Shown here piece by piece: positions 8,259-33,210 of a stretch of 33,210 nucleotides of DNA. Where the stretch lies: positions 1-33,210 of the forward strand of contig JAPKZA010000287.1 in NCBI GenBank assembly GCA_026394015.1. Direction: 5' to 3'. Position numbers and translations under genes: made by a program. Each line of letters starts with the position of its first letter. The stretch's first letter is position 1. The notes beneath the pieces were generated by a model, which saw only the letters and a list, made by a program, of their open reading frames with translations, searched no databases and was not told where the DNA came from. The DNA comes from Acidobacteriota bacterium (GTDB lineage: Bacteria; Acidobacteriota; Terriglobia; Bryobacterales; Bryobacteraceae).

Positions 8259-10040
8259 GTGAGGGAGGTGACTCTCGATCCTCTGCTGTGCCAACAGGTC
8301 CGCCGCGCTCGCGATGCTCGTTTCGACGGTAAGATTTTCATTGCGGTGACCTCCACCGGGATCTACTGTCGGCCGGTCTGTCCGGCACCGTCGCCGAAGG
8401 AATCGAATGTGGTTTATTTCGCGTCGGCGTATGGGGCGGAGGAGGCCGGCTTTCGGCCTTGTTTGCGTTGTCGTCCGGAGACGGCTCCGGGGACGACGGC
8501 TTGGCTGGGGACTTCGCAAACGGTTTCGCGGGGCCTGCGGCTGATCGAGGGCGGGGCTCTCGATACGGGGAGTGTGGATGCTTTGGCGGACCGCCTGGGG
8601 GTGACCGGAAGGCACCTGCGGCGGCTTTTTGTTGAGCATTTGGGAGCTTCGCCGGTGCGGATTGCGCAGACGTTGCGGATGCAGTTTGCCAAGCGGTTGA
8701 TTGACGAGACCACGATGCCTCTGACGGAGATTGCGTTCGCGGCTGGCTTCGGGAGCGTGCGTCGGTTCCATGCGGTGGTGCAGGCGCTGTACGGGCGGGC
8801 GCCGAGCGAGCTGCGCAAGGTTCACCGTCCGGCGTCAGCGTTCCGGCTGGCAGTGCGGGAGCCGTTCGATTGGGCGAGTATTCTCGGGTTTCTACGAGCG
8901 CGGGCGATCCCGGGGGTCGAAGAGGTCGACGAGACGATGTATCGCCGTTGGTGGGCGGGGGCGGAGATCACGATCCGCTTTCAGGCGCCGCATTTGCTGA
9001 TTTCGATGGAAGGGGCGAGCCCCGGCCAACGGCTCGATATCCTGCGCCGGGTGCGCCGCTTGTTCGATGTAGCGGCGGACCTTGACGTGATCAACGCGAC
9101 GCTCTCGCTGGACCCTTTGCTGCGGCCGCTCGTGCTGGCGCGTCCTGGCTTACGGGTGCCGGGGGCGTGGGATCCATTTGAGATTGGCGTCCGGGCCATT
9201 TTGGGCCAGCAGGTAACGGTGGCGGGGGCGCGGACGCTGGCGGGGCGTTTGGTGGCTGCGTATGGGCAGATGCCGACCGCGGAGCAGTTGGCGGAGGCTG
9301 ACCTGTCGAGTATCGGACTGCCGGGGTCGCGTCAGGAGACGTTGCGGGCGTACGCGCGGGCGGTGTTGGCTGAGAACGAGACGCTAGAGAATGTGCGGGG
9401 GATCGGGCCGTGGACGCGGGATTATTATGCGATGCGGGCGTTGGGGGAGCCGGATGCATTTCCGGCCGGTGATCTGGTGCTGCGCAAGGCGACCGGCCTG
9501 AATGAGAAGCAGCTGCTCGTGGCGGGCGTACGCCGCGTTGCACATTTGGCGAGGCCAGTCGTGAGGATTCGGCACCGGTTGTCGACGCCGATTGGTGCGC
9601 TCGTACTGCTCGGGACGCCCGCGGGGCTGAGCGAGATTCGCTTTCCTCATGCGGCCGCGGTGGAGGACGCGAGCGATGGCGAACTGCCCGAGGCGGCCGC
9701 GGAGATCGAGGCCTATTTCGCGGGCAGGTTGCGGGAGTTCACCGTCCCGCTGGCACCGGTGGGTACGCCATTCCAACATCAGGTTTGGCGATTGCTGCGC
9801 GAGATCCCTTTCGGAGCAACGACAACTTACGGTGCTTTGGCGCAGCGGCTCGGGAAGGCGAACGCGGCGCGCGCGGTGGGGTTGGCCAACGGATCGAACC
9901 CACTGCCGATCATCGTTCCGTGCCATAGGGTGATCGGATCGGACGGGAAGTTGACAGGCTTCGCGGGCGGGTTGCCGATGAAGGCCTGGCTGCTCGACTG
10001 GGAGCGGCACTGCAACTTCTTCGGCGCTGACGGAGAATAG
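8259..10040 (+). CDS. Ada-AlkA-Ogt fusion: alkylation regulator, DNA glycosylase and alkyltransferase
   Basis: This is a 593-residue three-part DNA alkylation repair protein. Residues 1-80 form the Ada zinc domain, with ligands C37, C41, C68 and C71 (YCRPVC...CLRC); C37 corresponds to the phosphotriester methyl acceptor. Residues about 95-175 form an AraC-type DNA-binding domain. Residues about 185-420 are AlkA-like 3-methyladenine glycosylase with the HhH region (GIGPWTRDYYAMRALGEPDAFP) and catalytic Asp at D405. Residues 435-593 are O6-alkylguanine-DNA alkyltransferase with acceptor C555 in PCHRVIG. The last AlkA helix is missing in this frame but is visible in the next frame (WRAYAALHIWR then TGA at 9562), overlapping a GTG at 9561 that starts the Ogt part. 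The fusion thus looks created by a small deletion near 9519. The start is GTG 8259. Confidence 0.92.
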   Translation: MREVTLDPLLCQQVRRARDARFDGKIFIAVTSTGIYCRPVCPAPSPKESNVVYFASAYGAEEAGFRPCLRCRPETAPGTTAWLGTSQTVSRGLRLIEGGALDTGSVDALADRLGVTGRHLRRLFVEHLGASPVRIAQTLRMQFAKRLIDETTMPLTEIAFAAGFGSVRRFHAVVQALYGRAPSELRKVHRPASAFRLAVREPFDWASILGFLRARAIPGVEEVDETMYRRWWAGAEITIRFQAPHLLISMEGASPGQRLDILRRVRRLFDVAADLDVINATLSLDPLLRPLVLARPGLRVPGAWDPFEIGVRAILGQQVTVAGARTLAGRLVAAYGQMPTAEQLAEADLSSIGLPGSRQETLRAYARAVLAENETLENVRGIGPWTRDYYAMRALGEPDAFPAGDLVLRKATGLNEKQLLVAGVRRVAHLARPVVRIRHRLSTPIGALVLLGTPAGLSEIRFPHAAAVEDASDGELPEAAAEIEAYFAGRLREFTVPLAPVGTPFQHQVWRLLREIPFGATTTYGALAQRLGKANAARAVGLANGSNPLPIIVPCHRVIGSDGKLTGFAGGLPMKAWLLDWERHCNFFGADGE

Positions 10041-31941: not shown

Positions 31942-33210
31942 TCAGCCCCGAATCCGCGCCACGGTATCGTAGAACTCGGCGTAGGACACGCTGGCCGCTT
32001 CCGCTTCGTTCACCGTCGTCTCGCCATCGGCGAACAAGCCCGCGACCGCAAACGCCATGGCAATCCGATGATCCCCGAACGAATCGACTTCCGCGGCGCG
32101 AAACTGCTGTTTGCCCGGAATTCGGAACCCGTCGTGTGCAGTATCGATCTCAATCCCCATGCGCCGCATGTTCTCGGCGACGGTCGCAATCCGGTCCGTC
32201 TCCTTCACGCGCAGTTCGCCCGCGTCCCGCACGGTCAGCCCTTCTTCGCTCATCGCGCCCAACACGGCCAACACCGGGATCTCATCAATCAACGCGGCCG
32301 TCATGCCCTTCTCAATTAGTCCACCTTGAAACCGGCTCGCCTGTACCTGTAGATCGCCGATCAACTCGCCGCCGGAAGACCGCATATCCAGCACCTTGAT
32401 CTGCGCGCCGCCGCTGACCAGAAAATCGATTAACGCCGTCCGTGAAGGGTTGAGCCCCACGTCATATAGAATCAAGTTCGATTCCTTGGCCAGAATCGCC
32501 GCGACCAGGAAGAAGGCCGCGCCGGACAGATCGCCGGGTACGAGCAGCTCCCGTCCAGTCAACGCCGCACCACCGGTGATGGAGACGGTCGTCCCCCGGG
32601 CCTGGATATCGGCCCCGAACTCCTTCAGCGCCAGCTCGGAATGGTCCCGCGTCTTGTGGGATTCCCGCGTCACGGTGGTTCCGTTCGCGTACAAACCGGC
32701 AAAGAGGACGCAACTTTTCACCTGCGCACTGGCCACTGGCAGGGTGTAATCAATGGCCTGGATATCCGCGGTGCCCTGAATCTCAATCGGAGGATAGGTC
32801 CCGTCGACGGCCGAAATCTTCGCTCCCATCAACTCGAGCGGGGTAATGATCCGCTTCATCGGTCGCCGCGCGATGGAGGAATCGCCTTCCAAACGGCTCA
32901 AAAACGGCTGTGCCGCTAGAATGCCGCTCAGCATGCGAATGGTGGACCCGGAGTTTCCGACGTCCAGCGTCTTTTCCGGTGCCGAAGGAGTTTCCGACGT
33001 CCAGCGTCTTTTCCGGTGCCGAATAGCCCCGGAGCCCCTTCCCGTGGACCTTGATCTCGGTGCCGGCCCGCTCTACGCCGACTCCCAGCGTCTCCACACA
33101 ATTTAGGGTGGAGTGCGGATCGGCGCCGGTGGAAAAATTCCGTAGCGTCGACGTCCCCTCCGCAATGGATGCCAGGATGGCGAAACGGTGAGAAATCGAT
33201 TTGTCACCCG
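31942..33210 (-). pseudogene. aroA: 3-phosphoshikimate 1-carboxyvinyltransferase AroA, frameshifted, N-terminus outside window
   Basis: AroA (EPSP synthase) joins PEP to shikimate-3-phosphate. The first part, read from the right edge, has GDKSISHRFAILASIAEGTS, NFSTGADPHSTL and GYSAPEKTLDVGNS. The second part, in another frame (32934-31942), has MLSGILAAQPF, GDSSIARRPMKRII, ASAQVKSCVLFAGLYA, SHKTRDHSE, RVKETDRI and GDHRIAMAFAVAGLF. Between them a 37-bp tandem duplication shifts the frame; translation of the first frame runs off into nonsense and stops at 32783. Deleting one copy gives VGNSGSTIRMLSG, the canonical family sequence. All other catalytic regions seem intact, so this is a very recent change, a reversible switch, or an assembly error. 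The histidine kinase follows one base after the stop. Confidence 0.92.
32950..33023. repeat. Perfect 37-bp tandem duplication inside aroA
   Basis: The 37 bases at 32950-32986 (beginning GGAGTTTCCGACG and ending GGTGCCGAA) are repeated exactly at 32987-33023 with no spacer. Because 37 is not a multiple of three, the duplication breaks the aroA frame. Perfect identity of the copies argues for a recent origin by slippage or for an assembly error. Confidence 0.97.

Follow-up and report, generated by a model that had tools for sequence, protein, structure and literature searches.

In mycobacteria, the A domain of Ada is described as fused to AlkA, and Ogt is a separate protein homologous to the B domain of Escherichia coli Ada (PMC7432924). 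E. coli Ada itself is described as carrying N-Ada20 and C-Ada19 in one chain (PMC4437013), and a natural nonsense mutation has been described in ada/alkA of Mycobacterium isolates (PMC1891112). The window analysed here is a whole contig of 33,210 nucleotides (JAPKZA010000287.1) from an Acidobacteriota bacterium, the genome of which comprises 7.9 Mb in 574 contigs and is 97% complete. Relatives of this bacterium show the same division of parts as the mycobacterial Ada-AlkA and Ogt set in that account, whereas in the window the AlkA stop codon is bypassed, Ogt is read in the same frame and the end of AlkA is lost. Like E. coli Ada as described, the locus places a sensor/activator and an O6-alkylguanine transferase on one predicted polypeptide, but a truncated AlkA lies between the two halves of this putative chain. 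The presumed inactivating change in the ada/alkA gene likewise recalls that of the Mycobacterium isolates, except that the latter is reported as a nonsense mutation and the former would be a frame-changing deletion. No natural Ada-AlkA-Ogt fusion appears among the literature titles listed, although a published example may exist outside that list. The features of the locus, with one further feature of the same contig, are as follows.

8259..10040, plus strand: joined Ada-AlkA/Ogt open reading frame, 593 amino acids (sequence, Pfam), with an alternative in-frame GTG start at 8268
8289..8480, plus strand: Ada_Zn_binding, phosphotriester sensor, residues 11-74 (Pfam)
8583..8819, plus strand: HTH_18, AraC-type DNA-binding domain, residues 109-187 (Pfam)
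8841..9173, plus strand: AlkA_N, residues 195-305 (Pfam)
9189..9491, plus strand: HhH-GPD glycosylase domain, residues 311-411; residue 405 corresponds to E. coli Asp238 (Pfam, alignment)
9515..9519, plus strand: site lacking 23 nt relative to five same-genus relatives, its position uncertain by a few bases (alignments)
9520..9564, plus strand: abandoned AlkA C-terminal frame, WRAYAALHIWRGQS, then TGA at 9562-9564 (amino acids as in the closest relative)
9551..9554, plus strand: Shine-Dalgarno-like GAGG, 6 nt upstream of the ogt GTG (read from the sequence)
9561..10040, plus strand: Ogt, with a GTG start in frame with the fusion (Pfam)
9579-9758, plus strand: Methyltransf_1N (Pfam)
9768-10007, plus strand: DNA_binding_1 (Pfam)
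31942..32934, minus strand: frame piece of aroA, the gene start lying beyond the contig end

The frame at 8259-10040 contains no internal stop codon, Ada-AlkA running on into Ogt, and Pfam found the domains of both proteins in it in the order Ada metal-binding sensor, HTH_18, AlkA_N, HhH-GPD and two Ogt domains, all above gathering scores; the continuous fusion frame proposed in an earlier sequence-only reading is thus borne out. The domain set of an Ada-AlkA protein (Ada_Zn_binding, HTH_18, AlkA_N and HhH-GPD) is present in a single chain, as is that of an Ogt-type O6-alkylguanine-DNA methyltransferase (Methyltransf_1N and DNA_binding_1, with intact PCHR at residue 554 and the arginine finger RAVG at residue 538). 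The Cys pairs of the sensor domain are kept (CRPVCP at residue 37 and CLRCRP at residue 68), and so are the conserved residues of this domain, of the HTH, of AlkA as far as residue 419 and of both Ogt domains.

Alignment with five same-genus relatives (G011, G017, G008, G016 and G015) revealed one clean gap, at about 9515-9519 of the window. From a conserved anchor to the TGA, the window has 71 nt and all five relatives have 94 nt, a difference of 23, and BLAST, run separately against the closest relative, G011, likewise gave a 23-nt gap, at 9515; the loss of about 23 nt estimated earlier agrees with both counts. In the relatives, AlkA ends in RAEAWRPWRAYAA.H.W and its TGA lies within ATGA, the ATG of which opens the ogt reading frame, while the overlap in the window is GTGA; the ogt start codon is thus GTG in the window versus ATG in the five relatives and in a sixth genome, G009. 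Since the 23 nt are absent ahead of the four-base overlap, the AlkA frame bypasses its stop codon and is read on into Ogt, and the GTG at 9561, being codon 435 of the fused frame, is in frame with it. The sequence-only reading had placed the shift at 9519, with TGG at 9520 leading through WRAYAALHIWRGQS to a TGA at 9562 overlapping the GTG at 9561, and these coordinates are exact. It had also supposed that the RAExWRP segment is missing and that two overlapping genes were ancestral, and comparison with the relatives upheld both suppositions. A programmed frameshift that would restore the AlkA end was considered and rejected, since a shift at 9519 yields the abandoned tail but the WRP residues preceding it are still missing.

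Sixty relatives (18 of the same genus) and 396 genomes of the phylum (that of the window included; E 1e-80 or better) were searched, and the junction was examined at 41 Ada-AlkA loci, 12 from the relatives and 29 from the phylum. The motif W[RS]P[WF]R.YA stands in frame at the AlkA tail in 40 of the 41, the exception (L044) running off its contig, and is therefore no chance match at the junction. Within the stretches examined, Ogt lies downstream on the same strand at 30 of the 41 loci, and at none of these 30 is AlkA continuous with it. A continuous fusion shared by relatives, named earlier as an observation that would speak against a recent deletion, was thus looked for and not found among the 30, and a natural fusion family common to the relatives was rejected. 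One locus, L012, gave a long single-frame BLAST match, but a stop at 2968 parts the two genes. In 14 further phylum genomes with a match, outside the 41 loci, the listed matches end at or before residue 430 and none extends into Ogt.

The damage to the AlkA end that had been suspected was confirmed. With invariance defined from 27 aligned sequences, all 61 invariant positions and 46 of the 48 nearly invariant ones are kept before the break (up to residue 419), and six invariant and five nearly invariant positions after it are lost in the fused frame. In E. coli AlkA, Asp238 and Trp272 are both called catalytic in one account (PMC7051996) and are both included among the ligand-recognising residues in another (PMC12785776). 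Alignment of E. coli AlkA with an intact relative places Asp238 at residue 405 and Trp272 at residue 438 (counted from the alignment); the fused frame retains the Asp238 equivalent, while the Trp272 equivalent and five other invariant tail positions are absent. Of the catalytic Asp and the last helix W[RS]P[WF]R.YA...W expected of an Ada-AlkA protein, the helix with its Trp272 equivalent is therefore missing. In AlphaFold models, the intact relative has helices at 416-426 and 430-440 (pLDDT 95 for 421-430 and 93 for 431-440), whereas the fused protein has one helix at 416-430 followed by low-confidence structure (pLDDT 47 and 28 for the same blocks). In the fused model, the Ogt half is of low quality as well (block pLDDT 24-90), which may reflect a thin, mixed alignment in that region, and the model therefore says nothing on how the halves pack. 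Because the fused frame lacks both the last AlkA helix and a counterpart of Trp272, the glycosylase is predicted to be dead, and AlkA activity has probably been lost from the fused protein; the earlier proposal that the product would also excise 3-methyladenine is not supported.

By contrast with AlkA, Ogt could still start at its own GTG, judging from the Shine-Dalgarno-like GAGG upstream; the corresponding site reads GGAGAGG or GGAGA in three relatives. Other repair genes are encoded elsewhere in the genome. A Tag-type glycosylase matches family positions 5-113 of 177 in a reading frame that looks complete, and an AAG-type glycosylase matches positions 1-178 of 181 with one TAA inside and possibly a shortened end. 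An Ada of the E. coli type has sensor and Ogt matches in one open frame of 330 aa. No second Ada-AlkA copy was found in the same genome, where the other matches are partial and at most 44% identical. As for the age of the break, the abandoned 14-codon tail has six substitutions relative to G011, none of which changes an amino acid in the old frame, an outcome that six random substitutions gave in a fraction of 5e-5 of 200,000 simulations. Together with the 61 of 61 conserved positions, this indicates that the gap postdates nearly all divergence from G011 or is not in the organism; on this sequence evidence, the frame-changing event appears to be either very recent or not real.

Within the genus, the locus occurs with the same neighbours in seven genomes, that of the window included (G001, the contig of which starts within ogt, is not counted); the search of relatives gave no close Ada-AlkA match in 11 other same-genus genomes. 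The four neighbours (moaA, two xylose-isomerase-like TIM barrel genes and fdhD) keep their full length in every one of the seven, as does ogt. Of the six congeners with the locus, two have a damaged ada-alkA and none a damaged ogt. In G009, ada-alkA is cut to about 110 nt, consisting of the first codons, an apparent middle piece and the last codons, after which ogt follows; in this remnant (L098 3957-4073) the ATGA overlap is kept and ogt has its own ATG. In G015, the HTH segment is gone from Ada-AlkA in frame, as inspection of the translation showed, and what remains is the metal-binding domain and AlkA in roughly 345 aa (L097 1-1080 on the reverse strand, and also L016). Damage to ada-alkA in three of seven genomes versus none of 28 neighbours gives a Fisher P of 0.005, in a test picked after the data were seen, with non-independent genomes and the window's own case counted. 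With ada-alkA damaged and the neighbours and ogt whole, constraint appears to be relaxed on ada-alkA alone.

Several further peculiarities of the locus were observed. In G011 (L034 4324-4990), about 670 nt lie between ada-alkA and a full ogt and form two repeats of about 338 nt, 96% alike, each made of an alkA tail, an ogt head and decayed pieces; the first ogt frame after AlkA there belongs to a decayed copy, and the junction has been rearranged in that genome as well. Third codon positions have G 0.57 and C 0.19 in the window (8259-9518) versus G 0.13 and C 0.67 in G011 (L034 2995-4251), despite which the two Ada-AlkA proteins are 91% identical. Nucleotide identity to this closest relative is 76-79% at the locus versus 85-89% in the compared stretches of contigs C40 and C230, and the composition may reflect an inversion of the region relative to replication.

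The assembly contains other breaks of frame. In galU (contig C40 47226-48049; L127 7226-8049), far inside its contig, 88 nt are absent and the frame is broken relative to three relatives; each half of the protein is 96% identical to G011. In aroA, which encodes EPSP synthase, an exact 37-nt tandem duplication at 32950-33023 of the window, 187 nt from the contig end, breaks the frame relative to G008, G016 and G015, to which the DNA alignment adds G017. This duplication is likely an assembly artefact, and for broken aroA and galU genes in a free-living organism, assembly would be an easier explanation than biology. At the edge of contig C31 of the same assembly (bases 5-129; L187) there is a second aroA start, 76% identical, which may come from another organism. 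N gaps of 25-78 nt number nine in the own-genome stretches read versus one in the stretches of five relatives, and the only comparable one of the nine spans 40 nt versus 5 nt in two relatives, so that gap sizes in this assembly are unreliable. Exact tandem duplications (units of 13-120 nt) number six in 566 kb of the own genome, including two that adjoin each other in a single tract, versus one in 845 kb of five relatives; three exact ones, the 37-nt duplication and others of 20 and 15 nt on other contigs, lie within about 350 nt of contig ends. Of 100 gene clusters tested, 86 were intact, ada-alkA itself being scored among the intact ones and aroA falling outside the tally; of the remaining 14, only galU had a frame break that lacked an N run and was seen against two or more references. 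Automatic counts of frame breaks are noisy because opposite-strand long reading frames and N-terminal extensions give false breaks; the frame-break evidence rests on galU (three references) and aroA (three references, four in the nucleotide alignment), and a rough Fisher test (3/100 versus 1/303, P 0.049) used hand-picked counts and carries no weight. Indels of at least 15 nt relative to the closest relative are few in the aligned blocks of four contig pairs, and the relatives are not break-free themselves, G016 having a frame break relative to five references. A possible further deletion was observed in contig C340 of the own genome.

A real and recent 23-nt loss-of-function deletion in ada-alkA, running AlkA into ogt, is regarded as the somewhat more probable origin of the fused frame. 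In this mechanism, a deletion just ahead of the overlap would take the AlkA frame past its stop into Ogt, and out-of-frame sequence would replace the last AlkA helix with its six invariant residues, among them the Trp272 equivalent, abolishing the glycosylase. The phosphotriester sensor and the O6-alkylguanine transferase would remain, the latter in the long chain, as free Ogt started from the GTG at 9561, or both. The loss of AlkA could be tolerated because the genome encodes two other 3-methyladenine glycosylases, of the Tag and AAG types, and a second Ada, of the E. coli type, and it would be one of several separate ada-alkA losses in the genus, with ogt kept. The damage to ada-alkA in two of six congeners, against none to ogt, favours such a gene loss, whereas the absence of any amino-acid change in the abandoned tail counts against it, as would be predicted for a break absent from the organism itself. 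With AlkA otherwise fully conserved, ordinary overlapping ada-alkA and ogt genes from which 23 nt were lost at a contig join or during gap closure are a weighty alternative, to which we give slightly less than an even chance. The galU and aroA frame breaks and the short N gaps favour such an artefact and make the earlier proviso about reads at the 23-nt gap a serious one; the unreliable gap sizes and the duplications, commoner than in relatives and in part close to contig ends, favour it as well. Unlike the aroA break, however, the gap lies 9.5 kb inside its contig, the window has no N run, most of the gene clusters tested are intact, large indels are few in the aligned blocks, and two further congeners also have structural damage in ada-alkA.

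A fused enzyme maintained by selection, in which one chain would sense methyl phosphotriesters, regulate and repair O6-alkylguanine around a dead or altered AlkA, is very unlikely, although no stop interrupts the frame, both the sensor and the Ogt motifs are retained, and the GTG in place of the ATG of ogt in relatives would fit a relaxed need for a separate start. Against it stand the absence of fusion at all 30 loci with Ogt downstream, the E. coli-type Ada already in the genome and the low-confidence structure predicted past residue 420; the residues before the Ogt start, moreover, are an out-of-frame reading of a still-conserved tail and show no sign of adaptation. It is equally improbable that the deletion created an E. 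coli Ada-like chain in which the dead glycosylase serves as a linker, observed here just as it arose. A real and recent loss of AlkA is therefore favoured over an assembly artefact, and none of the three readings describes a new kind of system.

If the break is an artefact, the locus is a caution, since automatic annotation would call a new three-activity repair enzyme from a frame-broken assembly. If the deletion is real, it would be one more loss of Ada-AlkA with Ogt spared, in a genus where ada-alkA appears to be dispensable, and an example of how overlapping stop and start codons may make accidental fusions easy.
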